Shown piece by piece: positions 5,948-42,929 of a stretch of 64,000 nucleotides of DNA. Within the stretch, counting starts at the first letter, position 1; each line of letters opens with the position of its first letter. A program made the translations under genes and the position numbers. The stretch lies in NCBI GenBank assembly GCA_036874045.1, contig CM072347.1, positions 3,846,501-3,910,500 of the forward strand, read 5' to 3'. The notes under the pieces are model-generated. The model did no database searches and was not told the DNA's origin. It was given only the letters and a program-made list of their open reading frames with translations. The stretch comes from Cymodocea nodosa (lineage: Eukaryota; Streptophyta; Magnoliopsida; Alismatales; Cymodoceaceae).

Positions 5948-6490
5948 ATAACATAGTTCAGAACTTAATTCTATATCCTGTTCTTCAATATTTGTTATTA
6001 GTTTGCCTTCCACTTTTATTAAATTGCTGTAAAAAGTTGGAACTAATCCATTGATATAAAAAAATGTATTTTCTTCTTGAATAATTTTGTTTAGCCCTTG
6101 AAATTCAAATAAACTATAAATTTCCTACAGTTTTCTCCAATCTAAAGGTCCGCTAAATAGTATATCAAAGGATTTGTAGACTTTGTATTTCTTATAAGCT
6201 TGGTGATTTCTAAAATACATTGGAGAATTGTTTGTCTCAAAAAATTTGCTTGTTACTAGAAGTGGTGGCTAGACTACTATTTCTACTAGTCTTTGAACAA
6301 ACTCTTCCATTTGTTCTGAAAATCATCTTCTCTATGTTCTTCAACCATTTCTTCTCGATGTTCTTCTACAATCACAGGAGGAGTTTTTTCTCTTTACCCT
6401 ATCTGTCTATTTTCTTCCAAAAATGCTTCTGTAATATCTTCACTCATTGGCTACACAATATTCTCAAAAATATCTTAAGATTACTATAGT
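5948..6490 (-). pseudogene. diverged 'putative plant transposon protein' fragment
   Basis: On the minus strand, short stretches such as LFEFQGL, GLVPTFYSNL and EGKLITNIEEQD align in order with LFEFQGL, NLVPCFYVNL and EGGLISNVEEAD of the better kept gene at 23567-27435. The family looks like the plant domain named 'putative plant transposon protein' (Pfam Transposase_32), whose role is unknown. The fragment is cut at 5948 by gypsy copy 1 and is worn. It is much more diverged from the copy 2 gene than the gypsy copies are from one another, so it came from an older or different element. Whether it belongs to copia element B next to it is not clear. Confidence 0.5.
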
Positions 6491-13235: not shown

Positions 13236-13439
13236 TGTTAGAACCTGAGTATTTTGATAATGCAAAACCTATGTGAGGAAATATATTGTATTTTACAGAT
13301 TTGTCAATACAACATAAGATCAGAAGGCAGATGGTATAAATTCCAAGCAGCAAACAGATTGCAGTTAATCCCAGAATATGTTGCTATAGAAAATCAGATA
13401 GTTACAGATCAAAGTATCTGAAGAGCAAGTTTACAACAG

Positions 13440-14420
13440 CAACAGCAAGACTATCGGACAGTTAGAATGATAACTATCCAAATTTACAAAGCCTTTAGAG
13501 AGTTAAATAACCGGACAGTTAAGAAGGATTGAATGATCGGATAGTTAAGGAGTTAACTATCTGGAAGCCTAAATGACTTTTTTAGAGAGTTACAAGTATA
13601 ACTATCCGAAAGTTAAGTTATTCAATTAACCACGTGCAGAAATACAAAACGGAAGCTTAAAGGACTTTTCAGAGAATTAGATAACTATCCGAGTTTTCTT
13701 TTCGGAGAGTTAGATAACTATTCGAGTTTTTCGGTGAGTTACAGGTATAACTTTCCGAAACTTAAGTCATTTTATTACGCACGTGCAGAATGGAGAAACC
13801 AGTAGTTAAAAGCTTAAAAGGAAAAATCAGAGAGTTAGATAACTATTCGAAATTTCAAGAGAGTTTCGGTGAGTTACAGTTTAACTATCTGAAACTTAAG
13901 TCATTGAATTTGCCACGTGCAGAATTCCAGACAAAAGCTCATATAAGTTTTTGGAGAGTTAGAAAGATAACTATCTGAAATTTCAAGAGAGTTTCAGTGA
14001 GTTACAGTTTAACTATTCGGAACTTAAGTTATTGAATTTCCCACGTGTAGAATTCCAAACAGAAGCTCAAATGGATTTCTAGAGAGTTAGAAAGATAACT
14101 ATCCAAAAAATGGAAAGTTTCAGTGAGTTACATTCTTAACTATCCGAAACTTAAGTTATTCTTTTATACACGTGTAGAATTGAAGAGACAACAGTCAGAG
14201 ACTAAAAAGAAATTTCAGAGAGTTACAGTAGTTAACTATCTGAAAGTCAAGAGCTCTTTTTGGTGAGTTAAAATACAAGTCTCCGAACACTTGACATTTC
14301 ACGTAAGCAACTTAAAATCCTCACATGACACAAATAATAGGATATGAGTAAAGAATCGGTAAGTTATGGATGCATTTCGGTAAGTTATTTATATAACCAT
14401 TTGAAAGCCAAGGATTATCG
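13440..14420 (+). promoter_or_regulatory. tandem U3 cassette array in the element C LTR
   Basis: Repeated order: TTTCGGTGAGTTACAG, a short gap, TAACTATC..GAAA, CTTAAGTCA, a gap of about 15, CACGTGCAGAATTCC. A clear unit is 13864-13922. CACGTG is the plant G-box (bZIP/bHLH sites), and the TAACT/AGTTA core resembles MYB sites. Enhancer function is inferred from position upstream of the TATA box. Confidence 0.6.
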
Positions 14421-14537
14421 GAAGGTTACTTACTGAACATCAGACAGAACGGTAACTTACCATATTTAGGTCTGATTATTTAGCAAGTACAGCAGAATAC
14501 ATCCGTTGAAAGAAAGAATGTGATCGTTATACCTTTT

Positions 14538-14553
14538 GGTATAAATATGAGGA
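14538..14553 (+). promoter_or_regulatory. TATA box of element C left LTR
   Basis: GGTATAAATATGAGG, the strongest TATA match in this LTR, just downstream of the cassette array. It is kept in the right LTR at about 52245-52259. Confidence 0.65.
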
Positions 14554-15049
14554 GTTTAAGAGAAGATGATATAGAGATAACGAATATACAATATACAGTG
14601 AGCTACACAAAAATTTCAGTTACACTCAAGTCTACAAATAGTCAAGCATACTCAAAAGATCTACTGCAGAAAAAGCTCTGTGTGCCAAAAACTCTGATTG
14701 AAAGATTCAAGTGTTGGTTCATGAGTTTCTACCTGAAAGCTTAAGAAAGAAAGGTTGGTTTTAGAGCTTATACCTGAAAGCTCTAAGTGTTGGTTCTTGC
14801 TTCAACCTGAAAGCAAGTGTTGTAAGTATCTGAATACTTAGTGAAGCCTAAGTGAATCTTGGGGGTGGACTAGCCAAGTTGGTGAACCACCTAAAATTTA
14901 CTGTGTTATTTTTCTCCTACTGCTTTTAAATCTTTTAGATTCATCTCATTTCATATTTGTTAAATCATTCGATTCAAACTTAAAAGATTTAAAACTTACA
15001 TACATTCACCATTCACCCCCTCTCTAGTGAGCCTACTGATCCTAACAAT

Positions 15050-15065
15050 TGGTATCAAAGTTAGG
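15050..15065 (+). other. primer binding site of element C (tRNA-Met type)
   Basis: TGGTATCAAAGTTAGG, two bases after the LTR end. It is close to the TGGTATCAGAGC site complementary to initiator tRNA-Met that Ty1/copia elements use. Confidence 0.85.
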
Positions 15066-15098
15066 TTAATCTTTCATAAGATTTAACCATCTGGATTT

Positions 15099-16466
15099 AT
15101 GGCTCAATTTGCTGAGGGACAAAACATCCACAAACCTCCTTTATTCGATGGTTCCAATTATAACTATTGGAAGAATAGAATGGAGTGCTTCCTTAGGAGT
15201 TCAGATGTCAAACTCTAGAAGATTGTTGTTCTTGGAACTACACTTCCAACTAGTGATGTTATGAACTGGTCTGAGGAGGATGAGAAAATCATCTAGTTGG
15301 ATGCTAGAGGGCTAAATGTCATATATTGTGCACTAACTGTTAAATAATATAATAAAATATCTGCATGTAAGTCTGCTCATGAGGCTTGGAAAATCCTTCA
15401 AATTACTCATGAAGGTACAAGCCAAGTTAAGGATACAAAAATCAGTATCCTGTTGAGAAAACTAGAACTATTTAAAATGAATGAAAATGAAAACATAACT
15501 GAAATGTTTTCAATATTTACTGAAATCATTAACAGTCTGAAAGGCTTGGGAAAGGAATTTTCTTCACGCGAACAGGTACAGAAGATCCTAATGAGCTTAA
15601 CTATTGAGTGGAAACAGAAGTCCACATCTATTCAAGATTCCAAGGATCTCAACAATTACATAGTTGAAGAACTGTTGGGCAATCTTCTGGCCCATGAAGT
15701 TCAAATGAAGGACTGGAAAGAGCAAGAAGGAGCTGTTGAAAAAAAAGCTAAGAAGAAAAAGGAAATAGCACTTCCATCTACAGAGGAAGCTCCAAGCTTA
15801 GATGATGATGAGATCATGTTGCTAGCAAGGAACTTTAGAAAGTTCATGAAGAAAAAGAATAAGCTTAGCTCCTCTAAAAGAATTGTTCCTATATGTTTCA
15901 AATGTAAAAGGCAAGGGCACATACAGACCTTCTGTCCATTTCAGATAGAAGAGGATCAAGGAGATAAGAAGAAGAGATGGAAGGACAAAAAGAAGATGGC
16001 TCTCAAAGCTACGTGGGATGACAGTAGCTCTTCAAACAGTTCATCAGATTCTGAAGATGAAGCTGCAGCCAATGTGTGTTTTGCAGCACAAGAGGTATGC
16101 TCCTCTTCCTCTAGTTCAGAAAATGAGCATGATGATTTAGACATTAATAGTCTTTTATCAACTATAGATAATTTATATGTGAAGTGTAGAGAATTTAAGA
16201 AAGAAATTAAAAGGTTAAATCATTGCTTAGAATATTCATTTGCTGAATTAGAATCAACTATAGTTGAAAATAGAAATCTAAAATCAAACTTGGATAAGTA
16301 TAGTTGTGTTAACTGTGAATTAAAAGAAGAAAATAAAAACTTATTAACTACAATATCTAATTTCAAAGACATCATATGTAAATTTACTCAAGGTCAAAAA
16401 GGATTAAATAAAATAATAGGATCTCAACGACCAAATGGAAATAAATATGGCCTAGGGTATGCTACA
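15099..16466 (+). pseudogene. copia gag of element C
   Basis: It starts MAQFAEGQNIHKPPLFDG with NYNYWKNRME, the usual DUF4219/UBN2-type copia gag start. The core continues to about 15720. A lysine-rich stretch precedes the CCHC zinc knuckle CFKCKRQGHIQTFC (about 15895-15937). Then come a serine/acidic tail (about 16020-16130) and a coiled-coil-like segment (to about 16400), both typical of SIRE-like gag-pol. Gag packages the RNA. The region is cut at 16466 by gypsy copy 2, and the coding text resumes at 35438. The front part has a few interruptions. Confidence 0.8.
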
Positions 16467-18703
16467 TGTTTGTGTTTTCCTAGCACTACACCAAAGTATC
16501 TGATTAGATCTCCAATAACGTACTAGAAATACTTGGATTTGTTACTTCCTTTTTTTTAGTTAATTTATCTTTATGCCTATTCTTTCTTTTAGAAGTAAAC
16601 AAACAACCTTTAATACAATTTAGATATTAATTTCAATTTGTACTTTATCTTCAAGTGCACAGTGTCTATTGTATCAGTGTGCAAGTACAGGTCGATCTCA
16701 TAGGGAATTGCTTAAAAGTTTAGAACTGTCCGTTTGTTAACAATCAAATTTATATATTCAATAAGCTCTCCGTTGAATTCCAATTAACTCAATGGATAAA
16801 GTTCGTTGAGTTATAGTTAACTCAACGGACTAACCTCGTGGACTTAAGTTAACTCCACAAGCCTATCTTTTCTTTTTAATACTGCTATTTACAGAGGAAT
16901 TCGGCCAACCATTGGGCGATTCCACAGATTGTAAATAACATCAATTAAGCTCTTTAATGTTAGTAAACACTGGATTTATTATTAAGCAATACTAACATTC
17001 AGATAATTCAAACAGTAACCAAAAAAATCTTTAAGTCTTTTGAACGAACCAATTTCAGTAAACTGTAAAACTAAAACAAACATAAAACAATCACAACACT
17101 AACAAAGATAACATTAATCACGATACAACATAAACAATACAACACTCAAATACAACATACAATATAGATAAATTGTTTTTGGTATTTTTGTTTTAATTTG
17201 AACATGGAAATGGGCGAAAGGTGAAATGTAAAGTAATCTCACTCGATAGTAAATACTTCCGACACTACTTGCAACGCGATTACACCATTGAAAATTAAAC
17301 CACTTACAATTCTGTCTCCTCTCCCTATAGAATCGCAAGTCCAGAATTGCAAAATAATCTTCTCTTCAGCATACAGGCATCAACCCAAAGCCAAGGCTAA
17401 AAGCTTTACGATCTCCTGAAATATAAGTCGGTGCTTGGTGAAAATGGTTTCCCTTCCCACGACGTGATCACTCCTCACAGTGGTTGTCAGGCACTGTGTT
17501 TGGCTCGGAATCGACCCGACATCAAGAAAGTATTCTCACATACCTTCGATGGTTGGTGATTATGGTGGATATAGTGATGGTAACGATGGTTGGTGTGGTA
17601 CTTTGGAGAATTGCCGATACTACCTATAGAAAGCTCGGTGCTCCTCCTCTATACACACTTGCCGTCCATCAATCACACCCGCACTTCTTTTTCTTCTTTT
17701 CTTTTATATTTCTTCAATAGTAACTGCTTTTGCTTGAATGATCGGTTGGATTTCCTTCATTCATATCAACAGCGATGATTTCTTCTCCCTACGCAATACA
17801 TGCAATCGTGGTTTTTCTTCCAACTATCCTATTTCTACAACTGCTACAGTGGCATATTAGAAAATAAATAGTCCATGGAGTTATAGATAACTCAAAGGAC
17901 TTTCTTCGTTGATTTAACTATAAAACACATGCATAAATTTAACCATCTGATGCTCAGATGCATTTCGGATACTTATAAACTTAACTATCCGATGCTTAGA
18001 TGTATTTTGGATAGTTACAAATAACTCACCGATATATAACTTAAGTAAATCTACCAAATCTCGACACATGTCAGTAGTAGTTTAATAATAAAATACCCAT
18101 TTCGGAGAGTTACAGGTCTAACTATCTGATGCTTAGATGCATTTTGGATAGTTACAGTTAACTCACTGAAAGTCCACTTAAGTCACTTTACCAGAATATG
18201 ACACGTGTCCTCAGTTATTTTATAAATAAAAAGAGATTTCGGAAGGTTACACATATAACTATCCGATGCCCAACTGCAATTTCGGATAGTTAGAGATAAC
18301 TCACCGAAAGTTCACTTAAGTCATGCATTATGGTTTCGACACGTGTACTTTAGGAAATAATAAAATATTCTTTCAAAACATAACTATTCGGCAATTTAAA
18401 CATAACTATCTGACATGTTCGGTCTGTTACACATAACTGTCCGAAATATGTTCGGTATGTTAAACATAACTGTCTAAAATATCAGAAAATTCGGATACTT
18501 AAGAATTTCACAACCTGCAACTTACCGACAGTTCAGAAATGTACTAAATTAACATTAATTCCCCAAAATTAAGCAGATTCTTTAATTAAAGCATATAACA
18601 GTGCAATTATAACGTAATGTCTTAATTCTCATATGATAAGCTAAATATTATGCAATTAACCATCATTTAACCGTTAATAATATGCACTTTTTCATTCTAA
18701 ACA
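16467..18703 (-). repeat. 3' LTR of gypsy copy 2 (A-type U3)
   Basis: 2237 bp. On the plus strand it reads TGTTTGTGTTTTCC to TTCATTCTAAACA. Its partner is 33201-35437. The U3 part, at the right end (about 17935-18530), carries CGGATAGTTA / TAACTCACCGAAA pairs with CTTAAGTCA and ACACGTGT. It abuts the CTACA target copy on the left and the polypurine tract on the right, which fixes the minus orientation. Confidence 0.9.
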
Positions 18704-18717
18704 CTTCCCCCGTACCC
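18704..18717 (-). other. terminal polypurine tract (copy 2)
   Basis: The plus strand reads CTTCCCCCGTACCC, so the element strand is GGGTACGGGGGAAG directly before the 3' LTR. Confidence 0.8.
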
Positions 18718-19568
18718 AAATTTTGCTAGTCCATTAGCAAACTAAGATCTAATTAATTGGTCTTTCAAAAAGTGCTAGAATTAATTCTTCTTCTTTCTTT
18801 TTTTATTTTGTTCATCATAAAAATATATTCTGTCTGTTTCAGTAATCAACTTACTAATATACTTAGAATATATGTCAATTACATACAAAGTATATCATTA
18901 TCACATAGGTGTTAATTATATTATCGTTTGTTCTTCTTTTCATCATCTACTATCCTGAATTTTCCAATAAGATTTCTAGAAGAAATTTTAACAACATACG
19001 AATCAAAGTACAATCTAATTCAATATGATTAAGACAAGTAGAATAAAGAATTGTATCTCCATTAAAACAACTTCAAAAGTCAATTCTAGATTCATATTAC
19101 AGTAATTCTAGATAACAGAAAATATACTCGATTCATAAGATATCCGTATTTCACAAAACACTTGTATCTTTTCAGAACAGTATATATATTTTTCTTTTTC
19201 TTTTCTTTTTTTTCTTTTTTTTCGTACTTTAAAAGTTAATTTTACAAGCTTGAATCATATAGGAGCTTTCTAATGTACCCATGTAACGAGCTTTCAGTCA
19301 ACAATCCTAGATCTGATCAGGATCTTAGGTTGCCAGATTTCAAGAGTCATTTTTCAGGTCAACAATCCTTACATACCTATCTGCTCAAGTACAAAAGGCT
19401 CATGATCAAACAAGTCAATAAACTCTCAATTTTTTCTCTTTTTTCCTTTTCTTTTTTTCAATCAAAATACACACAAAACAAAGCATTAATCACATACTAT
19501 ATATGTACGTATTTCATTAATACAGATGAAGTAAAACACCAATCTCATATAGTCTTGCTTCTATCATT
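18718..19568 (-). other. 3' noncoding tract of gypsy copy 2
   Basis: Collinear with 39896-40738 of copy 3 up to TTCTATCATTTA, where similarity stops at the inverted-repeat arm. It contains C/T- and A/T-rich low-complexity runs near 19190-19215 and 19430-19460. The open frame at 19273-19581 is not kept in copies 1 or 3 and is not supported. Confidence 0.65.
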
Positions 19569-20172
19569 TAATATAATATAAGGTCACTCCGTTGAGTTAT
19601 CTGTAAATCAACGAAGTTAGTCCGTGGAGTTAGCAACAGTAACCGACTGTGTTCTGTTGAGTAATCTATAACTCAACGAGGTTAGTTCGTGGATTAAGCA
19701 GAACGGTTATTCTTTTAACCACAAACGAAACTTCGTCAGTTTAGCGGTTACCAAAATTTGAAATTAGTAGTGGTACACGTACCCATTAAAACAGGAACTA
19801 CGATGCACGTTGCAAGACATGTTCTTGCAACGAGATTTATTCACTTTAGGGATGCGCAGTATATATATGAAATAGAATGTTATTTACGAGTTACCAGCAC
19901 TTTAAGAGAAAGGAGAAAGCGTTGGAGAAACTGGAAGGAGAAGCAGCTGATTCAACCTTCATCCGACAACAAATATTTATAGAATGGAAAGCTTCAGACT
20001 GGTATGTAATTAATCTTCTATTATTTATTTATGAGCACATGGACTCGTTCTCTAAGCACTAAATGATTAGTAAGAACACCTATCTAGGAATTTTCATTGC
20101 AGAGGGGTATTGAAAAATTTTCTGAACTAAACTTTAATGAAATTCTTTGGGGTGTAGCTAACCTTTCTTTAA
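19569..20172 (+). repeat. left arm of a 604-bp inverted repeat
   Basis: TAATATAATATAAGGTCACT at the outer edge to CTAACCTTTCTTTAAA at the inner edge. The reverse complement is at 22310-22913. By eye identity is near 90% along the whole arm. It replaces the second half of the F-box gene and the first part of the 3' noncoding tract seen in copies 1 and 3, so this arm looks like the displaced one. Inside is a further small palindrome around TTGCAAGACATGTTCTTGCAA. Confidence 0.85.
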
Positions 20173-20939
20173 AATTTGAATTTTATTGAATTCTGCAGAT
20201 GGTGGTTTAACTATATCACTCGGTATAGGTAAAATTTCTATATATTCATCATAACTGTCTATACTCACTATGTATAAATCAGATCCAAATGCAATTGAAA
20301 TATATGTGACAAGATATATATATCCATCAAGTATGACATGTGTTTGGTTAATTAATGATTTCTGTCCTAGATGTATCATAATATTTTCATTCTAAGATCT
20401 ATTAAGAAAATTATACACACTTAAGCATAAATCTTCACCCCAATTTCCTATAGGTCTCCAATAATATAATTTTTCAAGAATTATAGAATTTTTATCAGAA
20501 AATATTAAAGCTAACCCACAATTTACAGTTGGTACTTCAAATCTATTAGGTCTTCCTATATTCCATTCTTCTCCTGTTATAGGATTTATTATCAAAATAT
20601 TAGGTAATAATAAACTTGCATACCTTGGTCTCGTCTTGTATATGATTAATCCTTCATCTATCCCCATAATATGATTTATTCCTTCTAATGTATTGGGTGG
20701 AATTCCAGTAGTTTCTACCATAGCCAGATATTCATGGTTAATTGAACTACGATTAAATGACCTCCATATGATCCATCTCTAATCTTAATCATTTTTGCAG
20801 CTTGTAGTCCCTGAAAATATTTTTCTTCAATACAGTTTTTAATTTCCTTTGATACACAACACAGCCTGCACAGATCTTTGGCTGACAAGTTACTCAGTAC
20901 TTCCCTTAGTGCATCCAACAGTAAGTGCATCAATTCCAT
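20173..20939 (-). pseudogene. F-box gene of gypsy copy 2 (front two thirds)
   Basis: The translation matches the copy 1 gene from the start (MELMHLLLDALREVLSNLS) through NPITGEEW, SVYNFLNRS and VILDGYIYLVT, then ends at the inverted-repeat arm. The F-box and most of the FBA-like middle are present; the part equivalent to LMKFQIWIM onward is not. The gene lies 170 bp after gag on the same strand, as in copy 1. It has about two interruptions besides the arm. Confidence 0.75.
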
Positions 20940-21108
20940 TTGTTGATTCTATATAACACAAACAATAATTTAGCAGAGACAAAAATTAACATAGCTACTG
21001 CACACCCTCGTGGAGTTAAGGCTGTTGAGTTAAGGACTAACTCTACGATACTATTAACTAAAAATAAAAACAAATATACATACAGATAGTTGCTTCAAAT
21101 ATGTTGCT

Positions 21109-22309
21109 TCATTTAGCTATCCTCCTAGAAGAGGTATCAATTTCATTGACCGTTCTATTGACAAGATTAGATATAGCTTGTATTGGCAATCCTCTAGTAG
21201 GTTTACCTTCCATTGGTTCCTTCTGTCTAAGTGGTATATTTCTATTTTGATTTTGAATTGCAACACTTCCAAATACAAAATCTAGACGATTGTTTAATTG
21301 TTGGATTATCTTTTCTAATTTCTCTATTCTAGATCCTTGTTCTAGTAATGCTTCATAACTTATATTCTTCTCATTCATATTTTCTCCTCCCTGGAAATTG
21401 TTGTTTCTCCAAGATAAATTCGGGTGATTTCTCCAATTAGGATTATAAGAATTTCCCAAGTTATCTCTCTAATTTCTAGCATAAATAATATCTAAATCAT
21501 TTATATTTGCATTCTTTTCTGTTAGCTTTTGATTTAATGATAACTCTTCTATTTTCTTTAATAATTCATTTAATTTCACCTTAATCATAGTATTTGAATC
21601 TATTTCATGCATTCCTATTGACAATATTTTTTTATCTGCAATAGCTTCAGCCGAATTTTCCCACTGTGTAGTTCTTTTTGCAAAGTTTTCTAAATATGCC
21701 CATGCTTCTTCACTACATAACTTTAAAAATCCATTTTGACAAGTAGATTCTAATAAAGATTTCGTTGAAACATCTATGCCTTCATAAATTATACCTATTA
21801 ATTGTGCTTTACTCATTGCATGATGTGGACATTGAGTCAATAAATCTTTAAATCTTTCAAAATATTTCTAGAATGATTCACCATGTTTTTGGCTACACAT
21901 TAATATTTCTTTCTTCTTTTTAATCATTTGATGTGTTGGATAATATTTTTCCAGAAAAATAGAGTAAAATTCAGTCCATGTAGAAATTGAATCAGGTGAC
22001 AGAGTATATAACCATCTCTTAGCTATGTCTTTTAAAGAAAAAGGGATATATCTAAGTTTAATAGCATCTATACTTATGTTCGGCATTTTCATCATTTGAC
22101 AAACTTCATTAAATTCTCTAAGGAAATAATAAGCATTTTCTCTTTCTAATCCATGAAAATGTGGCAATTGACTAATATAATTAGATTTCAGTCTAAACCT
22201 ATCTCCCTCAAAGTTTGGCAATCAAATACATGAAGGTTCATCAACTAATTCCCGATACAGAATTTCTCCTAATGGTTTTTCTACTAGAACAACCATCTCT
22301 ACGTTCTCT
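21109..22309 (-). pseudogene. gag capsid-type region of gypsy copy 2, downstream of pol
   Basis: Minus-strand text: LPNFEGDRFRL, HFHGLERENAYYFLREFNEV, IPFSLKDIAKRWLY, STWTEFYSIFLEKYYP, CPHHAMSKAQLIGIIYEG, then SYNPNWRNHPNLSW and a leucine-rich tail. This is the retrotransposon capsid domain (Retrotrans_gag family) in its Athila form. In this element it lies after integrase and the PTPD gene, and directly before the F-box gene. Whether that order is the family's native plan or came with the inverted-repeat segment is open, but copy 1 shows the same gag/F-box junction. The copy has about three interruptions. Confidence 0.82.
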
Positions 22310-22913
22310 TTTAAAGAAAGGTTAGCTACACCCCAAAGAATTTCGTTAAAGTTCAGTTCAGAAAATTTTTCAGTACTCTTCTGCAATGAAAATTCCTAGG
22401 TAGGTGTTCTTACTAATCGCTTAGTGCTTAGAGAACGAGTTCATGTGCTCATAAATAAATAGCAGAAGATTAATTACATATTAGTCTGAAGCTTTCCATT
22501 TAGTAAATATTTGTTATCGGATGAAGTTGAATCAGCTGCTTCTCCTTCTAGTTCCTCCAAAGAATTCTCCTGTCTTTTAAAAGTGCTAGTAACTCGTAAA
22601 TAACATTCTGATTTATATATATAATGTACATCCATAAAGTGAATAAATCTCGTTGCAAGAACGTGTCTTGCAACATGCATCGTGGTTCCTATTTTTATAG
22701 GTACGTGTACCACTATTAATTTTAAATTTTGATAACCACTAAACTGATGAAGTTTCATTCCTGGTTAAAAGAATAACTGTTCTGCTTAATCCACGAACTA
22801 ACCTCGTTGTGTTATAGATAACTCAACGGAACACAGTCGGTTACTGTTGCTAACTCCATGGACTAACTTCATTGAGTCACAGATAATTAACGGAGTGACC
22901 TTATATTATATTA
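22310..22913 (-). repeat. right arm of the 604-bp inverted repeat
   Basis: The reverse complement of 19569-20172. On the minus strand it leads into gag without a break, so it is probably the native leader of that gag region. The outer edge ends GGTCACTCCG/CCTTATATTATATTA. No matching target duplication is seen outside the arms. Confidence 0.85.
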
Positions 22914-23566
22914 TTGACCTCGTGGAGTTACGGTTAACTCAACGGACTCACTTCGTTGAGTTAATACTTAGCAACTTCTAAGTTTACTCTTGTAAATTTC
23001 TCTCTGCTATTTTTTTTTTTTTTCATTCTACTAACTGAAATAAAGTTAAATCTATGTCATTAATGCATCATTCTAATCAAAATTCATTTAAATCTGAACA
23101 TTATATAAAGATTTAACTTATAGGTCATTTTATATTATGCGGAATTTACATTTTACCTTACAACATGTAGAAATTTTAAGCATTTATCTTGTCATTCAGC
23201 AAATTGTAAATCTATTACATATTCATTCATAAAGTTCCACAAATTATATAATATTCAATAAATTCCATTCATTTCACATCCAAAACACATATGAAAAGTA
23301 CATCTGAAAAATTATATTCATTAATATGAATCAATTTACATTACAAATACATCATGCATTTTCATACAATTATATAAGTAGACGAATAATACAATTTAAT
23401 CTCTATTCCTAAGTTCATCTACTTCCTTCTGGAGTTTTTCTAATTGAAGTTCTAATTGATTAATTCTTTCTACAGCTCCTGTAATGCCTCTAGAAGGTAT
23501 AGCTATCTCTGCAACTACAAAATTTCTGTATTCTTTCATTGAAATGGTTCTTGATCTGATCCTTTT
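22914..23566 (-). other. spacer between PTPD gene and gag leader
   Basis: Noncoding. The first 75 bp (CTCGTGGAGTTACGGTTAAC, then CTTCGTTGAGTTA) align with 42826-42900, the spacer before the F-box gene in copy 3. The rest is AT-rich with no gene seen, with helix-rich coding-like text appearing only near 23400-23560. Confidence 0.55.
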
Positions 23567-26500
23567 TTATGTCCATTTAGTAAAATCGATATAGTCCACC
23601 ATCAGTAATAGAATCAAATCTCCATAAAACAATTTTTTCTTTACTGCTTTCAGCTTGGAGATAAAAATTGTAGACCAATTTATTTGAACCCTGTTCACAA
23701 CTGCATATGTGGCCCATTTGACAAATTGACTTAATTCTATGTCATGGCCCTGTCTTTGATAGACATTTTTAATCAAAATGTTAGCTACCATGTGTGCCTT
23801 ACCACTTAAATGCTTCAATCTATTTAATAAAGGTACACCAGGATTTATAGCTAAACAATCTTTGATTTCTTGTTCAGTCCACTCGATGGCAGTTGTATCT
23901 TCCAAAATTTTTATTCCTTCATTCTTCAATCCAAAAATGTTGTGGAGAAGCTCTGGTGTTATCTATACATCAGCTTCCTCCACGTTTGAAATTAATCCTC
24001 CTTCTCTTTCTCTTAAATTTACATAAAAACAGGGCACTAAATTCTCATATACTACATGCCCTCTCTCTTGAGAAATGAATTGCAGTAGGCCTTGGAATTC
24101 AAATAGATCTTTGATTTCTTGCATTCTATCCCAATTTACTAGTCTACTATAAATAATATCATAACCCCTTATTTCTTGGTATTTGGTATAAACTTCCCGA
24201 CTACGAAAATGTACTTCATTCAAAATTGTTGTTTCAGTCGAGTTAGGAAGGTGACTTTGTTGTTCTAAAGGGGTTTGTACTTGCTCTTCCTCTAACATAG
24301 GCTGCATTTGAACATTTTCTACAGATTTCTGAATTTCTGTTTCTATTTGTGGTGGTGAGCCGGCAGAACTCTCTACTCTGTCTTGAATTCTTTCCATATA
24401 TTGCTGAAGAGTTTCTTGCTCTTTAGTGGAATTTGTGAAATTATTTTTGTCCAAATGGCTTCTTTCATTCTCTTCATTTTCTACTCTTTCTTCTTCCTCC
24501 TGACTACCAATCTGTTCTGTTACTATTCTTTCTGATTCTATAACAGATTAGGATGGAGTCACGGGCAATTTAGTTTCTACCCTAATTTCTGTTTCTTCTT
24601 GTACTGGCTGTAGACTAATTTCAACCTGATTTTTTTCTTTTCTTTGCTCTTGCTGCTGCAGCTCCTCTTGCTCCTCCTTAGAATCAGGTAGCAGGTTAAT
24701 AAAAATTTGCTTCACAGGTCCTGTTGACAATGGTATCTCAGATTTAATTTCTCCATATGCAAGCACTTTTTCTTTTCCTTTCTTTTTTCTGATTAGTTGT
24801 GCATGTTCTTCATCTTCATCTTCTGAAATTAAATCTACAAAAGTAGGCTTTGCAAGCCTTCGAGCCACAGGTACTGGTTCTTCCTGTTTAACTTTTTCTA
24901 TAACTACTGGTCTCGAAGGACCAGCTTCATCTCCTATTGCAGTAGGTTTGGCAGTAACTGCTGTTTGATGCTGCTCAACCTTTATTTTGTATTGGGCCCT
25001 CATCTTTTCTTCGGCTCTTCTTCTCTTAATGGCATCATATAAAATATGTACCTTAGCCGTAGCTATTTCTTGAGTATCACCTTGGTCTCTTGCTGTTTTG
25101 ACCAAGCTAGTAAATTCTTTCTCTTCTTCTTCAGTTCTCGACCAAACAAAGGCTAATCATGGCAATGGCTCTATTGGCTGAACTAGAGGTCTTGACTGCT
25201 ATTCCTCAAGAACAGGTCTTTCAATAGTCGATTCTTCCTGTTCTCTTGCTCGTTGCTACTCCCATATTGCCTAGCTTCCTCGACCAGCAATGCGTTTCTT
25301 AAACCACAATCTAGCTTTACATTGAATTAGCTCTAGGGCTACTTCATTGTTTGGCCGGATTTTTCTTTCTTGGCTAACTACAATTTCAGTTGCCACTCTA
25401 ATCCGTGTCTCCATTATCTGTGGTATTTGTATTTCTAACTCAACTAAAACTTTCCTCAAGTTAAAGAGTTCTAACTCTACCTTTTGTAGCTCTTTCTCTC
25501 TTGTTGTATTCTGGATCTTTTACCGTGTGTGCTGTTTAGAATGAAAAAGTGCATATTATTAACGGTTAAATGATGGTTAATTGCATAATATTTAGCTTAT
25601 CATATGAGAATTAAGCCATTATGTTATAATTGCACTGTTATATGCTTTAATTGAAGAATCTGCTTAATTTTGGGGAATTAATGTTAATTTACCACATTTA
25701 TGAACTGTCGGTAAATTGCAAGCTGTGAAATTCTTAAGTATCCGAAAATGCATCTGAGCATCGGATAGTTATACCTGTAACTCTCTAGAATGTTATTTTA
25801 TGTTTAAACTACCGCTGACACGTGTTGAGAGCTGGTAGATTTACTTACGTTATAACTCGTTAAGTTAGTATAACTGCACGCGTTGAGTTACATGAAAATA
25901 CACTAAGGCAACGCGTTAGGTTAGCGTTATAAACTTAAGTTGTTATTTTTGCACGTGTTTTATAGTTAAATCAACGAAGGAAGTCCGTTGAGTTATCTGT
26001 AACTCCACGGACTATATATTTTCTAATATGCCACTGTAGCGATTGCAGGAACAGACAGTTGGAAGGAAAAATCACGTTTGCACGTATCACACAGGAATTC
26101 AATCGCGCAGGGAGAAAGAAATCATCGCCGTTGATCTGAAGGAAGGAAATCCAACCGACCATTCAAGCAGAAGCAATTACCACTAAAGAAATATAAAAGA
26201 AAAGAAGAAAAAGAAAGAAAGAGTGTGATCGATGGATGGCCAGTGTATACAGAGGAGGAGCACCGAGCTTTCTGCAGACAGTATCGGCGATTCTCCGAAG
26301 TATCACACCAACCATCGTATCACCACCATAATCACCAATCATCGGAGGTCTGTGAGGATACTTGCCTGATGTCGGGTCGATTCCGAGCCAAACACAGTGC
26401 CTGACAACCACTATGAGGAGTGATCACGTCGTGGGAAGGGAAGACATTTTCACCAAGCGCCGACTCATATTTCAGGAGATCGTAAAACTTTTAGCATTGG

Positions 26501-27435
26501 CTTCGGGTTGATGCCTATATGCTGAAGAGGAGATCATCTTGCAATTCTGGACTCGCGATTCTATAGGGAGAGGAGACAGAATTGTAAGTGGTTCAATTTT
26601 CAGTGGTGTAATCATGTTGCAAGTAGTGTCGGAAGTATTTACTGTCAAGTGAAATTACTTTACATTTCACCTTTCGCCCATCACATCAAAACAAAAATAC
26701 CAAAAACAATTTATCTTTGTTTGTATGTTGTATTTGAGTGTTGTATTGTTTGTGTTGTATCGTGATTAATGTTATCTGTATCAATTTTATGATTGTTTTA
26801 TGTTAGTTTTAATTTTACAGTTTACTAAAATTGGTTCGTACAAAACAACTTAAAGATTTTAATGGTTACTGTTTGAATCATCTGAATGTTAGTATTGCAT
26901 AATGATAAATCCAATGTTAACTAGCATTAAAAAGCTTAATTGATGTTATTTACAATCTGTGGAATCGCCCAATGGTTGGCCGAATTCCTCTGTAATTAGC
27001 AGTATTATAAAGAAGAGACAAGCTCGTGGAGTTAAGTCCACGAGGATAGTCCGTTGAGTTATCAATAAATTTGAATATAAATTTGAATTGTTCACAATCA
27101 AACATTTCTTAAATTTGTCAGCAATTCCCTATGGGATCGACCTGTACTTGCACACTGATACAATAGACACTGTGCACTTGTAGTTAAAGTACAAATTGGA
27201 ATTAATATCTAAATTGTATTAAAGGTTGTTTGTTTACTTCTAAAAGAAAGAATAGGCATAAAGATAAATTAACTAAGTAAAAATAGAAGTAACAAATCCA
27301 AGTTTTTCTAGTGTAGTGCTGGGAAGACGCGAACATGTGCCATTCTTCAGATTCCTTCAGAAACTGTGCGGTGTCCACTGCATCTTCCCAAAATTCAAGC
27401 GTCATTTTCCTCATCGTGGAGTTACCCAACAGCAC
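23567..27435 (-). pseudogene. 'putative plant transposon protein' (PTPD-like) gene of gypsy copy 2, holding a solo LTR
   Basis: Minus-strand coding text from MLLGNSTMRKMTLEFWEDAV near 27435, broken by a solo LTR (25533-27335) and resuming at 25527. Next come a helical, probably coiled-coil stretch (25270-25460), a charged linker with a basic patch KKKGKEK (24548-25105), and a C-terminal globular part (23567-24454: DLFEFQGLLQFI, NLVPCFYVNL, HMVANILIKNVY). The last part resembles plant Transposase_32-type domains of unknown role. It takes the place, after pol, where Athila elements keep an envelope-like ORF. It has about four interruptions besides the solo LTR. The family call is from memory of motifs. 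Confidence 0.55.
25533..27335 (+). repeat. solo LTR of the gypsy family (mixed-type U3) with perfect target duplication
   Basis: TGTTTAGAATGAAAAAGTGC to GACGCGAACA, 1803 bp, in the plus orientation and flanked by TGTGC at 25528-25532 and 27336-27340. It is collinear with the other gypsy LTRs here. U3 has one CGGATAGTTA unit and then the block 25852-25956 (reverse complement of 39451-39556 of copy 3). A solo LTR with a clean duplication means LTR-LTR recombination removed the body of a full insertion. It lies in the PTPD-like gene of copy 2, so it is younger than copy 2. Confidence 0.92.
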
Positions 27436-27970
27436 GGAAGCGCTCTGATTTGTACTATTCTAGATTCTAAATGATTTACCGGATAATGCCCCCAAAACCC
27501 TAGGTTTTAGTTAAATAAGCCCTAAGTTTAGGCGGGTAATCGAGTCATTTCCTGAACCAACTATTACTATTTTATCCATGGTCTTAGCTACAGTACTCCG
27601 TTGAGTTATAGTTAACTCAACGGAATAAGCTCGTTGACTAACTCAAGACTCAACGGAGTAAGCTCGTTAAGTTAAGCGTACTCAACGGACTCCGTACAAA
27701 CAGATATAATAATAAAAATACTACAGATAACAGTTTTTCTATTTAACTTTTTTTTTTTATATACTATAACTCAACAAACTTTATCCGTTGATTTTTTTGT
27801 TTTCGTTTTTTGTTTTTTTTTTCTCAATTTAACCGATACTATGTTTCGGTCAGACCTAAATATTTTTTTTGGTTGAACCGATACTATATATATATATATA
27901 TATATATATTAATGTGTTTTTTATTTATTTATAAAACTTTTTATATATAAACATAAAAACTGATTTCTTA
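27436..27970 (-). other. spacer between integrase and PTPD gene with AGTTA/TAACT arms
   Basis: Noncoding. It holds several GTTGAGTTA / TAACTCAACG pairs (27595-27690), one unit related to the 42930-43270 tandem repeat (AACCGATACTATGTTTCGGT near 27835) and a (TA)n run at about 27886-27910. Confidence 0.6.
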
Positions 27971-30900
27971 CTAAGTAAAGATCGAGTAATCCTTTACTCT
28001 GACTTCTTCTATAATTCCAAAGGAGCTTTTTGGTGTTTTCAGAATAGGTCTAAGACTTTGTCCATTTACTTTAAATATATTCTAATTTTTAGGATTTTCA
28101 ATTTAAATAGCTCCATAAGGATAAATATTTCGAACTATGTAAGGTCCTCCCCATCTAGATCTTAATTTTCCTGGATGGTTATGGAGTCTAGCCATATAAA
28201 GATATACTTCTTGTCCTATTTCAAAACTTTTTGGAATAATTTTTCTATCATGCCAAAATTTAATTTTCTATTTCTCTTACAGTCTTCGAATAAGCTTCAT
28301 TTCTAAATTCTTCTAATTCAATTAGTTGCATTTTTCTATTTTCAACAGCTTGATTTAAATTAGTATTCAGAGTTTTTAATGTCCAATAAGCTTTATGTTC
28401 TATTTTAGCAGGTAAATAACAACTTTTTCCATATACTAGCCTAAAAGGTGATATACTTAAGCTCGTTTTATAAGCAGTTCTATAAGCCCAAAGTGCATCT
28501 ATCAATCTATTAGCCCAATCTATTCTAGTAGTATTTACTACTTTTTCTAAGATTAACTTAATTTGTTTGTTTGCCCAATCTATTAACTTTTTCCAAAGAA
28601 TTTTCCATCAAGTGTAATACGAAGTCGTTACTTTAATGTTAATTAAACGAGTAACACAAGTATATATATATATAACTTAACATTTCTAACTTAACGAGTT
28701 CCTCATGTGCCATTTTACGTGACAAGTACTGTAGCTAACTCAACGAACTAAGTTCGTGGTGTTATGCTAACTCAATGAACCAACTTAACCTTTCTTTCGG
28801 AAGGTTAAACGATAACTCACCGAAAACAGTTTAAGTTTCGGATAGTTACAGTTGTAAGTCATCGAAAAGCTCTTTATATCATAAAACTAGTGAGACACGT
28901 GTCAAGACCTGAAAACATGACTTAAGTTACCTTTTGGATAGTTACAGTTGTAAGTCTTCGAAAAAACTTTAACTCACCGATTCAGTGATAAAAAAATGTT
29001 TTTTATAATAAGAATTTTACCACGTGCAAGAAAAATAACAACTTAAGTTTATAACGCTAACCTAACACGTTGCCTTAGTGTTCAATATAGCAACTCAATG
29101 CGTTTAGTTATGTTAACTTAACGAGTTAAACATGTGCACCTCACGTGATACAATACAACATTCGTAACTTATAATTTCACCACGTGTATAACACTAACTT
29201 AACGAGTTATCACGTGACCTATTTTAACCTTTAAGCCTCTAACTTAACGAGTTCTCACGTAACCTCTATACAAACAAAACTCTAACTTAACGAGTTGTCT
29301 AAACGTGCACTATTCATGATACGGAAGATATAACTTTAAAACATATCATGCTTTTCAATAAAAACACACGTTAACTTAACGTTTAGTTAAATGAGAAATT
29401 AATGCAACGAAACGATTAGTTATTAACTTCAGATCCAATATAGACAAGTATTTATGCTAGTAAGCTTTTTCTGTATTAATTGATGATTTTAATTTCTTTT
29501 CACAACCAATAATAATTGAGCAAATATGATTATATTCATTCAGCACACATCATCAAAACAAAATACTCAACAATATTTCTCTTTGATATTCTTCTTATTT
29601 GTTGACATCTTAAACAACTTAAGCAATATTTATGAGCATCTTTGAATAGTGTTTGCCAATAAAACCCACATTGCAGAATTTTTGCAATAGTTTTCCCTGA
29701 ACCAAAATGCCCTCCACAAGCTTGGTCATGACAAAAAGACAATATGCTTGGATATTCAGTTTCTGGAACACACCTCCTTAAAACCAGATCAGGACATTTC
29801 TTAAATAAGTATGGGTCTTCCCAATAGTAATATTTTACTCTTGAGAAAAACAATTTCTTATCCTGTCTATTCCAATCCTTAGGTGTTAAACCAGTTACTA
29901 AGTAATTAACTATGTCTACATACCAAGGCATTGTGTTGATGGTCATTAATTGTTCATTAGGAAAATTATCCTTAATTTCAATATTTGATTTTTCTATTTG
30001 TAATCTTGATAAATGATCTACTACTACATTCTCACAACCTTTTTTATCTTTAATTTCTAGATCAAATTCTTGTAATAATAATATCCATCGTATCAATCTA
30101 GGTTTAGTCTCTTTTTTCTTTATTAGATGTTTTAAAGCTGAATGATCCGTGTATACTACCACTTTAGTTCCAATCAGATATAATCTAAACTTTTCTAAGG
30201 CAAACACAACAGCTAATAATTCTTTTTCAGTAGTTGTGTAATTAACTTGAGCATCATTTAAGGTTTTGCTTGCATAATGAATCACTCTAGGAGATTTTTC
30301 TATTTTCTGTCCTAACATTGCTCCTACAGCAAAATCAGAAGCATCGCACATTAATTCAAATAGATGGTTCCAATCAGGTGCTTGAATTATAGGAGTTGAA
30401 ATTAAGCTAGTCTTAAGTCTTAAAAATGCTTCATTGCAATTTTTATCAAAGTTAAATGGGACATCTTTTAATAGATTAGTTAAAGGTCTAGCTATTTTGC
30501 TAAAGTCTTTAATAAATCTTTTATAAAAACCAGCATGTCCTAGAAATGATCTAATATCTTTTACTAATTTAGGTTCTGGTAGATTGGAAATTACTTCTAT
30601 TTTAGCTTTATCTACTTCCAACCATTTCATAGAAACAACATGCCCTAAGACTATTCCTTGTTTAACCATGAAGTGACATTTTTCCCAATTTAAAAATAGA
30701 TTTTTTTCCACACAACGTTTTAATATTTGGTCTAAATTACTTAAACAAACTTCATATGAGTTGCCATATATAGTAAAATCATCCATAAATATTTCTAAGA
30801 AATCTTCAGTCATTCTAGTAAATATGCCCTGCATATACACCTTTGAAAGGTAGCTGGTGCATTGCATAATCCGAATGGCATTCTCTTAAAAGCATAAGTT

Positions 30901-33103
30901 CCATTAGGACATGTGAAAGTTGTTTTCTCTTGATCCTCTAATGCTACTGGAATTTGATTATAACTTGAATATCTGTCTAGGAAACAAAAATATTCTTGCC
31001 CTGCTAATCTTTCTAGCATTTAATCTATAAAAGGTAAGGGAAAATGATCTTTCCTAGTCACAGCATTCAGCTTTCTATAGTCTATACATACTCTCCAGCC
31101 TGATTGAATTCTAGTAGGTATCAAGTCTTGACTTTCATTCCTAATAACTGTTAATCATGATTTCTTGGGAACTACATGGATTGGGCTAACCCACGAGCTA
31201 TCAGAAATCAGATAAATTATGTCATTATCTAACCATTTCACTATTTCCTTCTTGACTACTTCTTTAAGGTTTGGATTTAATCTCCTCTCAGGAATTCTAA
31301 CAGGTTTAGCATTCTCTTCTAAATATATGTGGTGATAGCATAAAGTTGAACTTAACCCTTTTATATCAGTCATAGTCCATCCTATTGCTTCTTTATAACT
31401 TTTTACTACATCTTTTAATTTAGCTATTTGATCCTCTTTTAAATCTGAAGTAATAATGATTAGATAGGTTCGTTTATCTTCCAGAAATATATAGGTTAAT
31501 TCAGGAGGTAAATGTTTTAATTTTAAATGCTACTCATCAGAAGCTAGCACTTCTAATTGAACATCATCATTTTCTAAATTAATTTCTTCCTGATCTCCTT
31601 CTATATCTATGCTTTCACTTTCCTCTAAAGTTTCAGAATTGATTTGCCTATTTAATTCTTCTTGAATCACATCTTCCAACATATCTCCTTCATCCTCTAA
31701 AAAGTCTATGGTATGTAAGGACATTTCTAACTCCTCAAACCTTCCTAGTTTGAAAATATTTAATTGAGTATCCTCATTACCATATGCTAGCTTCATTACT
31801 CCAATTTTACAATTTATAACAGCCCTTGTTATTGCTAAGTCTATACCTACACCTAAGTCTATTAACATAACATTTATACCTGCACCTAAGTCTATTAAGG
31901 TTCTTTCTAGAATGGTATTTCCTATGGTGAATGATATAACAGAGATTCCAAGATCAGATAACTTTTTAGGAATTTGTAGCAGAAATAGGGAACTACTTTG
32001 CTCAGCTAAAAAGACTTTTCTAAGAACTTTTCACTATCTTTTCTTAGTACACCAATCCTTCAAAAATTTAGCACAAGGTGGCATTTTTTGCAATAGATCT
32101 AACAAAGGAACGTTAACTTGTACTTTGTCAAAAATTTCTCTGATTTTTTCTTATTTTTCAGGTATTATTTGTTGTAATATTTCAGGATAAGGTGGTAAAG
32201 ATTGTGATTTAAAATATTCTTTTTCTTTCGTTTGATTTGTTTGATCATTTTTAGCTTCATTAGCAGATTCAGATTGTTCTTCAATGATTTCTAGATTTTT
32301 AGCTATTACATTTTCATTATCATTTTGATTTTTACTCTTATCCACCTTCATATCATTTTCATTTTGAGTTCTTAGTGGTATATCAGTTCCAGATCTTAAT
32401 GTTACACATACATCTTCTAGATTTTCGTTACTCTTATGATGTTTTTGTATATCATTTTCGTAATTATGATCTTCAATTGTTTTTAGTTTTAAAGTGCATT
32501 CTTTAAATTCTCTTGCATTAATATTTTCTTTGGTTGTGTATTTTGCAAATTATGCAGGTTTATAACATTATAATTTTCATTGTCTTGTTGCATAACTTGT
32601 ATTTTCATTGTATATTCGTCTAATGCTTTTAATTTTCTTTCCAGATCATCTAATTTCATTGCACTCAATTTTTAATCAATTTTCATTATGGTTTTTTCAG
32701 TTTCGTAAATTATATCCATTTTAGGTTCTGAATATGTTTCCTTATAGTTTAATTGGTTGACTTCTTGTTGCTGACACATAAAGTATTCCAGTTTGTCAAG
32801 GTTTTGCTCTATACTACGCTCCAGTCTGTCATACCTATCCCAAACTTCTATGTCTCTCAACATATTACACATTCTATACTAACCATCAGTTGGGTAAACT
32901 ATAGGATTCTCATACTCGGCTCTATTATATTGAGGATAATTCATTTGTTGTTCATGGGATATAACCATCTGTAAACGTCTCAGTTTCAAACAGTCAGAAA
33001 TGTCATGTCTTTTAGAATTGCAGAATTCACATATGCTAATTACAGGTTTCAGAAATCTTTGAGCATAAGCATATGCCATATTCTCAATTATAGAAGAAAA
33101 CAC
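27971..33103 (-). pseudogene. gypsy pol region of copy 2: zinc-motif ORF, protease, RT, RNase H, integrase
   Basis: Minus-strand order: a short ORF with a zinc-knuckle-like motif CEFCNSKRHDISDC right after the primer site (32879-33103), a glutamine/acidic linker (31900-32870), protease-like text (about 31750-31870), RT (29900-31370: [28 protein letters not shown]; RNase H near [13 protein letters not shown]), integrase zinc-binding HH-CC ([10 protein letters not shown]), then after an inserted LTR piece the integrase C-terminal part (27971-28505: [10 protein letters not shown] and a GPYIV module). ALWAYRTA and KAYWTLK are Athila/Tat-type. No capsid domain is visible in front of protease. About seven to ten interruptions. 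Confidence 0.85.
28600..29572 (-). repeat. copia-type LTR piece inside integrase of copy 2
   Basis: It is absent from the matching place in copy 3, where about 330 bp of integrase sequence is found. Read on the minus strand it starts at 29572 with TGTTGAGTATTTTGTTTTGA, a copia-like LTR start close to that of 10645. It is rich in AACTTAACGAGTT, CACGTG and CGGATAGTTA units. The left edge is uncertain. No target duplication was found, which fits a truncated or rearranged insertion. Confidence 0.6.
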
Positions 33104-33176
33104 ACAACTCTCTAGCTATTAAAACAAAACAGCTCTAACAGTTGCTTATATTAATTCAATTCAATTCAAGTTAATT

Positions 33177-33193
33177 CCCTGGCAACGGCGCCA
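33177..33193 (-). other. primer binding site of copy 2 (tRNA-Asp type)
   Basis: The element strand reads TGGCGCCGTTGCCAGGG, seven bases inside the 5' LTR. This agrees with the 3' end of plant tRNA-Asp (TGGCGCCGTTGCCGGGG), the primer known from Athila elements. Confidence 0.85.
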
Positions 33194-33200
33194 TAAAACT

Positions 33201-35437
33201 AGTTTGTGTTTTCCCAGCACTACACCAAAGTATTTGATTAGATCTCCAATAACGTACCAGAAATACTTGGATTTTTTACTTCTTTTTTTTTAGTTAATTT
33301 ATCTTTATGCCTATTCTTTCTTTTAGAAGTAAATAAACAACCTTTAATACAATTTAAATATTAATTCCAATTTGTACTTTAACTGCAAGTGCACAGTGTC
33401 TATTGTATCAGTGTGCAAGTATAAGTCGATCCTACAAGGAATTGCTTAAAAGTTTAGAACTATCTATTTGTTAACAATTAAATTTATATATTCAATAAGC
33501 TCTCCGTTGAATTCCAATTAACTCAACGAATAAAGTTCGTTGAGTTATAGCTAACTCAACGGACTAACCTCGTGGACTTAAGTTAACTCCACGAGCTTGT
33601 CTTTTCTTTTTAATACTGCTATTTACAAAGGAATTCGGCCAACCATTGGGCGATTCCACAGATTGTAATTAACATCAATTAAGCTATTTAATGTTAGTAA
33701 ACATTGGATTTATCATTAAGCAATACTAACATTAAGATAATTCAAACAATAACCATTAAAATCTTTAAGTCTTTTGAACGAACCAATTTCAATAAATTGT
33801 AAAACTAAAACAAACATAAAACAATCACAACACTGATAAAGATAACATTAATCACGATACAACACAAACAATACAACACTCAAATACAACATACAATATA
33901 GATAAATTGTTTTTGGTATTTTTGTTTTAATATGAACATGGAAATGGGCGAAAAGTGAAATGTAAAGTAATCTCACTCGACAGTAAATACTTCCGACACT
34001 ATTTGCAACACGATTACACCATTGAAAATTAAACCACTTATAATTCTATCTCCTCTCCCTATAGAATCGTGAGTCCAGAATTGCAAGATAATCTTCTCTT
34101 CAGCATACAAGCATCAACCTGAAGCTAAGGCTAAAAGCTTTACGATCTCCTGAAATATGTGTCGGCGCTTGGTGAAAATGGTTTCCCTTCCCGCGACATG
34201 ATCACTCCTCACAATGGTTGTCAGACACTGTGTTTGGCTCGGAATCGACCTGACATCAAGAAAGTATTTTCACAGACCTCTGATGGTTGGTGATTATGGT
34301 GGATATGGTGGTGGTAATGATGGTTGGTGTGGTACTTTGGAGAATTGCTGATACTACCTGTAGAAAGCTCAGTGCTCCTCCTCTGTACACACTTGTCGTC
34401 CATCGATCACACCCACACTTCTTTTTCTTCTTTTCTTTTATATTTCTCCAGTAGTAACTGCTTTTGCTTGAATGATCGGTTGGATTTCCTTCATTCATAT
34501 CAACGACGATGATTTCTTCTCCCTACGCAATACATGCAATCGTGATTTTTCTTCCAACTGTATTGTTTCTACAACCGCTATAGTGGCATATTAGAAAATA
34601 AATAGTCCATGAAGTTACAGATAACTCAACGGACTTTCTTCATTGATTTAACTATAAAACACGTGTATAAATTTAACTATCCGATGCTCAGATGCATTTC
34701 GGATACTTATAAACTTAACTATCTGATGCTCAGTTGCATTTCGGATAGTTACAGATAACTCATCGATATATAACTTAAGTAAATCTACCAAATCTCGACA
34801 CGTGTCAGCAGTAGTTTAATAATAAAATACCCATTTCGGAGAGTTGCAGGTCTAACTATCCGATGTTCAGATGCATTTCGGATAGTTACAGCTAACTCAC
34901 CGAAAGTCCACTTAAGTCACTTTAACAGAACATGACACGTGTCCTCAGCTATTTTATAAATAAAAAGAGATTTCGGAGAGTTACATATATAACTTTCCGA
35001 TGCCTAGCTGCAATTTCGGATAGTTAGAGATAACTCACCGAAAGTTCACTTAAGTCATGCATTATGGTTTCGACACGTGTACTTTAGGAAATAATAAAAT
35101 ATTCTTTCAAAACATAATTGTTCGACAATTTAAACATAACTATCCGACATGTTCGGTCTGTTACACATAACTGTCCGAAATATGTTCGGTATGTTAAACA
35201 TAACTGTCCGAAATATTAGAAAAGTCGGATACTTAAGAATTTCACAGCCTGCAACTTACCGATAGTTCAGAAATGTACTAAATTAACATTAATTCCCCAA
35301 AATTAAGTAGATTCTTTAATTAAAGCATATAACAGTGCAATTATAACATAATGACTTAATTCTCATATGATAAGCTAAATATTATGTAATTAACCATTAT
35401 TTAACTATTAATAATATGCACTTTTTCATTCTAAATA
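33201..35437 (-). repeat. 5' LTR of gypsy copy 2 (A-type U3)
   Basis: 2237 bp, partner of 16467-18703, ending at the CTACA target copy (35438-35442). The clearest cassette lies at 34877-34946 on the plus strand: TTTCGGATAGTTACAG, TAACTCACCGAAAG, CTTAAGTCA, ACACGTGTC. Confidence 0.9.
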
Positions 35438-39881: not shown

Positions 39882-39895
39882 CTTCCCCCATACCT
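39882..39895 (-). other. terminal polypurine tract (copy 3)
   Basis: The plus strand reads CTTCCCCCATACCT directly beside the 3' LTR; the element strand is AGGTATGGGGGAAG. Confidence 0.8.
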
Positions 39896-42756: not shown

Positions 42757-42929
42757 TTGTCGATTATGTAAAACACAAATAAAAATTTAGTAGAGACAAA
42801 AAACTAACATAGCTACTACACACCCTCGTGGAGTTACGGTTAACTCAACAGACTTACTTCGTTGAGTTAACACTTGTGGCAACATCTAAGTTTCACTCAC
42901 GTAAGTTTTCTATTCTATGTTTTTTTTTT

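Follow-up and report, generated by a model that had tools for sequence, protein, structure and literature searches.

A repeated, ordered U3 cassette common to Ty1/copia and Ty3/gypsy LTRs in Cymodocea nodosa

The window, by which we mean the whole 64,000-nucleotide stretch of Cymodocea nodosa DNA analysed here, holds a copia element interrupted by two gypsy elements, A and B, as indicated by self-comparison, Pfam matches, and boundary reading. The LTRs of the copia element (copia C) lie at 13236–15047 and 50943–52754, both on the + strand. Gypsy A (16467–35437) is nested in it and is flanked by the target site duplication CTACA (16462–16466 and 35438–35442), while gypsy B (38025–49871, − strand) displays an imperfect duplication, TAGTG/CAGTG. 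LTR divergence (K2P) was 0.080 for copia C, 0.065 for gypsy A, and 0.040 for gypsy B, values that agree with the nesting of both gypsy elements in the copia.

The 5′ LTR of copia C reads TGTTAGAACC...GATCCTAACA, and a TGGTATCA-type PBS begins 2 bp past its end. A gag domain (PF14223) was detected at 15453–16526. Pol pieces of the interrupted element (Pol_BBD, gag_pre-integrs, SH3, and RVT_2, by Pfam) occupy 35615–38087 (+), with an rve match that falls under the curated cut-off. Three AGGGGGAG polypurine tracts (50662, 50794, and 50933; feature 50662–50942, +) precede the 3′ LTR, the last of them starting 10 bp upstream and followed by AT and then by the TG of the LTR at 50943. Palindromic repeated motifs with a CGG-CCG core are also present, and most of their arms (10 of 12) fall within the first half of the 5′ LTR. 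Copia C carries published Sirevirus hallmarks and is classed on them as Sirevirus-like. Its 3′ LTR lacks about 32 bp at the 3′ end, and a third LTR of the family lies at 61916–62922 (−), with a AGGGGGAG PPT at 62932. Where a 5-bp target duplication would be expected, a 221-bp direct repeat (13015–13235 and 52760–52980) flanks the element; this repeat is less diverged (98.6% identity) than the copia LTR pair (92–94%), and TTATG follows the shortened 3′ LTR.

Gypsy A and B both encode RVT_1, RT_RNaseH, and integrase in the order typical of Ty3/gypsy, between a pair of LTRs. Direct reading revealed a PBS-like string, TGGCGCCGTTGCC, which may be of the tRNA-Asp type, as in the Athila/Tat lineage; no Athila Pfam match was found among the ORFs scanned. 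The LTRs of gypsy A span 16467–18704 (3′, −) and 33201–35437 (5′, −), the latter with a candidate TATAAAAG near LTR position 996, downstream of its array. Gypsy B has related LTRs (38025–39881 and 48004–49871) with reduced arrays (CACGTG at 39451, 39585, 49441, and 49575). Two further gypsy LTRs on the + strand carry the cassette words on the − strand: one from another copy (3688–5948, array at about 3900–4560) and one of the gypsy B type (25533–27335). The window also includes a fragment of another copia-type LTR family at 28600–29572 (−), and the start of a solo LTR, TGTTAGGAATTTTG, at 10645–11400 (+). A copy of the 28600-type family elsewhere, L011, is a solo LTR with the 5-bp target site duplication CATGC.

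Two other features of these elements are recorded here. An ORF at 757–1155 (+), inside a gypsy repeat and about 2.5 kb before its LTR, encodes an F-box domain (PF00646, E = 1.8e-7). Homologous DNA lies at about 20174–21704 (−) and, in part, at 42697–42870 (−), with the domain detected in the 757–1155 copy only; the region before a gypsy LTR often holds env-like genes. A second word family, TAACTCAACG/CGTTGAGTTA plus TAACTTAACGAG, is found in gypsy LTRs, on their U5 side, as well as in the copia LTR of the 28600 type (16784–16855, 27615–27689, 48278–48366, and 29100–29300). A stretch holding it aligns between gypsy locus L053 and copia L011 in the same orientation, with 76 of 97 columns identical.

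The U3 arrays of these Ty3/gypsy and Ty1/copia LTRs are built from a cassette of fixed order: CGG..CCG palindromes enclosing AGTTA/TAACT, followed by CTTAAGTCA and finally by CACGTG. Ten units, chosen by hand to represent gypsy, copia C, the copia family L025/L026/L027, and the copia of the 28600 type, follow the order palindrome, palindrome, ACTTAAGTCA, gap, CACGTG. Rows from L027 and L011 are shortened and their palindromes degenerate. The original prediction placed the same words in the same order at 13864–13922 (copia) and 34877–34946 (gypsy), and these words are indeed present, except that its CGAAA reads CTGAAA in the unit at 13864 and is intact in the unit at 13730. Compared with dinucleotide shuffles of the window, AGTTACAG occurred 27 times against 2.55, CTTAAGTCA 11 times against 1.08, and CACGTG 32 times against 2.63, an enrichment of 10- to 12-fold that none of 100 shuffles reached for any word. 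Repetition within LTRs was likewise borne out by Tandem Repeats Finder, with periods of 137 (gypsy) and 128 (copia). In the copia 5′ LTR the array covers 13537–14293 (+), with CTTAAGT(C/T)A at 13761, 13895, 14023, and 14150 and CACGTG at 13631, 13780, 13914, 14042, and 14169; the arrays of the 3′ and third LTRs lie at about 51289–52034 and at 62703–61916. The gypsy A array covers 34600–35260 (CACGTG at 34660, 34799, 34936, and 35074), with its counterpart in the 3′ LTR at 17879–18500; both read on the + strand, against transcription on the − strand.

Some details of the prediction had to be amended. The gap between CTTAAGTCA and CACGTG, given as 15–20 in both elements, is 16 in gypsy and 10 in copia C. 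The solo LTR at 10645, said to hold a simpler form of the cassette, does carry single direct arms (GGATAGTTA), but nothing beyond them. Opposite directions of the cassette relative to transcription hold for the compared pair but fail as a superfamily rule: the cassette runs in reverse in gypsy and in the L025–L027 copia family, and forward in copia C and L011. Superfamily-specific orientation was therefore rejected. In the 28600–29572 fragment, CTTAAGTCA (28926) and CACGTG (28901) lie on the − strand with a gap of 16. A TATA-like string was found downstream of the array in all seven LTR sequences checked, where the L026 and L027 LTRs were taken without defined 3′ ends; other such strings also occur before or inside several arrays.

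The arrangement is strict throughout the genome. The pattern CTTAAGTCA-N8-25-CACGTG gave 13,841 matches (6918+6923) against 8 (7+1) for a backward-pattern control, and flipped CTTAAGTCA with CACGTG gave 18 (8+10) against 7 (6+1), six of the 18 containing TGACTTAAGTCA, a string that matches the word in either direction. High-copy families dominate these counts, which thus measure strictness of arrangement, not number of origins. Gaps of 11–15 yielded only 79 matches (control 2). Among 100 matches listed, all from contig C1 and tallied by eye, the gap was 16 in 56, 10 in 39, 9 in four, and 15 in one. A survey with relaxed words and gaps of 9–12 and 15–17, in sampled sequences that included loci picked for gaps 11–15, retained 107 of 129 instances after duplicate removal. 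The gap was 16 in 44 and 15 in 10 gypsy instances; 10 in 33 copia C instances, with 9, 11, or 12 in seven; 16 in seven and 15 in one of the L025/L026/L027/L054 family; and 16 in three of the L011 family, one of which, in L008, sits within gypsy sequence. One instance falls in an LTR-like stretch of L005 that matches the named families over only about 42 bp. There, on the − strand at about 324–354, a further LTR-like family displays CTTAAGTCA-N16-CACGTG with palindrome arms that seem different. The sampled loci come mainly from contig C1 of this one genome.

The family sampled at L025 and L027 is Ty1/copia. L027 has two AGGGGGAG tracts and an AT|TG junction, as in Sireviruses, and L025 has the AT/TG junction with a tract one G shorter. 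Beside L025, locus L074 encodes gag, pre-integrase, IN, SH3, and RT in copia order, on the − strand as the LTR implies, at 29–66% amino acid identity. Beside L027, locus L040 holds RT and SH3 pieces (47–59%), 6–9 kb from the LTR.

Shared words and shared descent were separated by array comparisons. The gypsy and copia C arrays reached a local alignment score of 48, against a mean of 23.2 (sd 2.4, maximum 32) in 200 shuffles. Across all array pairs, L044 gypsy–L027 scored 111, window gypsy–L054 94 (219 of 319 columns identical), and window gypsy–L011 89 in inverted orientation (128 of 176), against shuffle maxima of 30–35. In 13 of 18 gypsy–copia pairs the score stood clear of the highest among 60 shuffles by more than 5 points; the five that were not raised involve copia C (two) and the 10645 family (three). 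As predicted, the rest of the LTRs looks unrelated: the parts downstream of the gypsy and copia arrays scored 24 and 25 against about 24 when shuffled, and three of 30 downstream pairs, one of them copia–copia, exceeded the largest of 60 shuffles by 1–2 points, while one equalled it. Common descent of whole LTRs was rejected, since these parts are near chance. The 10-mers common to at least four of five LTR families numbered nine (shuffle mean 0.07, maximum 1), whereas common 7-mers among the five were at the null (618 against a mean of 650). Individual pairs varied, and 9-mers common to gypsy and the 10645 family stayed below the shuffle maximum (70 against 81).

A stricter control kept every word and shuffled the spacers (300 shuffles, 11 pairs, with L011 and copia C in inverted orientation only); because the letters of AT-rich spacers were shuffled in place, this null is a lenient one. 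L044 gypsy–L027 copia, in the same orientation, scored 111 against a null mean of 38 and maximum of 54 (0/300), a post hoc test, since the choice of L044 followed the anchored-spacer comparison, in which its spacers had already matched. Window gypsy–L011, inverted, scored 89 (mean 57.7, maximum 86; 0/300). Weaker signals came from L044–L054 (67, 1/300), window gypsy–L054 (94, 3/300), and L044–L011 (57, 4/300). Little or nothing beyond words was found for window gypsy–L027 (17/300), L026–copia C (21/300), window gypsy–L026 (28/300), L026–L011 (155/300), gypsy–copia C (176/300), and L011–copia C (258/300). When 16-bp spacers were anchored, gypsy and the L025/L026/L027/L054 family (seven distinct spacers) reached a best match of 11.0/16 against a null of 6.8 (0/500). 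The single L011 spacer matched gypsy at 3/500 (best) and 0/500 (mean), with the downstream flank at the null. For copia C, the first 10 bases gave 25/500 (best) and 6/500 (mean), while the last 10 and the downstream flank were at the null. By blastn, the L027 array matched gypsy loci L044, L008, and L043 over 144–247 bp at 68–72%, and the sequence to either side of these L027-like arrays is that of the gypsy LTR, in its proper order. The spacer, alignment, and blastn results imply that gypsy and two copia families have array DNA in common beyond the words.

Based on these findings, we propose, as the explanation we consider moderately probable, that a U3 enhancer module has been exchanged between superfamilies with its internal order kept and its orientation to transcription variable; factor binding and activity are predicted from sequence. 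The common words keep a fixed order and spacing and lie upstream of a candidate TATA box; the spacers of gypsy resemble those of two copia arrays, in one case in inverted orientation. The cassette would be a modular enhancer array of tandem palindrome-palindrome-CTTAAGTCA-CACGTG units, which host transcription factors most likely recognise. We take CACGTG to be a G-box, a bZIP or bHLH site, and AGTTA/TAACT is probably a MYB-type site. Recombination or repair involving nested or adjacent copies may have moved an array segment between Sirevirus LTRs and gypsy LTRs, followed by local tandem duplication, and the words were presumably kept because they promote transcription whichever way they face. 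The spread across superfamilies that had been predicted is supported, mainly through families outside the window: L044–L027 and window gypsy–L011 beat 300 of 300 controls. The pair on which the prediction was built, gypsy–copia C, has nothing in common but the words and their order, and selection by the same factors, or an exchange too old to see, fits it better.

Pure convergence, in which each LTR family built its sites independently for one host factor complex needing that order and spacing, would explain that pair, and it suits the near absence of the flipped arrangement and the low gypsy–copia spacer identity. Word and spacer identities were 0.80 and 0.39 for gypsy–copia, 0.74 and 0.42 for copia–copia, and 0.88 and 0.63 within families. 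Nevertheless, gypsy spacers and flanks match copia L027/L054, and gypsy spacers match L011, beyond the words, and as a general account we regard convergence as rather unlikely. A satellite or small mobile element inserted in many LTRs would fit the tandem units inside them, but all 30 sampled forward-pattern loci, several overlapping and all from C1 at 2.3–5.2 Mb, lie within LTR sequence (21 gypsy, four copia C, one L011 family, three L025–L027, and one L014, assigned by a short match), and Tandem Repeats Finder gives 2.5–2.8 copies of the long units. The widespread satellite indifferent to LTRs, against which the prediction had set itself, is the least probable reading.

A role in RNA, with the inverted repeats forming transcript hairpins for packaging, dimerisation, or small-RNA production, would draw on the palindromic arms, and Sirevirus palindromes in maize are reportedly linked to hairpins and small RNAs. 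It is disfavoured, and in our view highly improbable, given that cassette orientation to transcription is opposite in different families and that the inner two arm bases pair less than in shuffles: 38 of 132 against a mean of 70.3, with pairing at or above the observed in 1000 of 1000 shuffles (66 distinct palindromes from few families, the instances not independent). The typical palindrome sets an AT arm opposite one with TG or AG. There is no support for a strict avoidance of identical arms, as CGGATAGTTA-N2-7-TAACTATCCG, with identical AT arms, occurs 1101 times genome-wide. For this reason, and given the non-independent instances, the pairing bias is no more than a lead, one that points toward a mixed pair recognising DNA and away from an RNA stem.

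Returning to the exchanged module, a bolder form of it is that the U3 array is a compact enhancer that moves laterally, that it has passed between Ty1/copia and Ty3/gypsy on more than one occasion, one of them with inversion, and that both superfamilies share and depend on one host input; this we advance tentatively, with slightly less than even confidence. A cassette of fixed grammar common to two superfamilies would mean that retrotransposon regulation is exchangeable as a module. Such a cassette could bring both superfamilies into activity together, in a given tissue or under a given stress, and could spread one enhancer through the host genome in thousands of copies (13,841 core matches here). 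The cassette would also offer a natural experiment on the spacing and orientation rules that an enhancer tolerates.

The usual view takes LTR promoters to be specific to a family, and the BII boxes of Tnt1 are reportedly arranged in tandem. As far as the accessible parts of the sources go, Tnt1 BII boxes bind defence-induced factors (PMC3316501), the Tto1 LTR is activated by the MYB factor NtMYB2 (as cited in PMC6762207), and the copia LTR of tomato Rider, responsive to ABA and drought, carries MYB sites and an ABRE-like site (PMC6762207). In the same parts, Tnt1 and Tto1 are single copia families with no sharing across superfamilies described (PMC3316501, PMC6762207), and Rider is one family with single scattered sites, without an ordered repeated cassette or a gypsy counterpart (PMC6762207), unlike the case reported here. 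Among titles and abstract openings of the open-licence literature, which is weak evidence, we found no description of a single cassette occurring in the LTRs of gypsy and copia alike; no report of Sirevirus-type boxes in gypsy elements appeared in the open-licence literature searched, and none of the matches listed for a text search on the cassette words was, judging by its title, a paper on transposons.

The closest known system is the repeated motif (RM) of Sireviruses. In the accessible part of its description, RM boxes include many palindromes with a CGG-CCG core, such as TTTTCGGACWTRTCCGAAAA of Osr9 (Bousios et al. 2010, PMC2829016). They start 200–400 bp into the LTR, upstream of the TATA, in elements with multiple AGGGGGAG tracts and an AT/TG junction, and are termed Sirevirus-specific relative to classic Ty1/copia, the comparison being within Ty1/copia (PMC2829016). 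The cassette is reminiscent of these boxes in its CGG-CCG palindromes upstream of a TATA-like string, and the window copia has the AGGGGGAG tracts and AT/TG junction. The gypsy array may work like RM boxes, although its host element, with gypsy pol and LTRs, is no Sirevirus. CGG-CCG boxes as such are already known in Sireviruses. Unlike the RM as described in that part of the source, the cassette has arms that reach into AGTTA/TAACT, holds a fixed order with CTTAAGTCA and CACGTG, and is also present in Ty3/gypsy LTRs.
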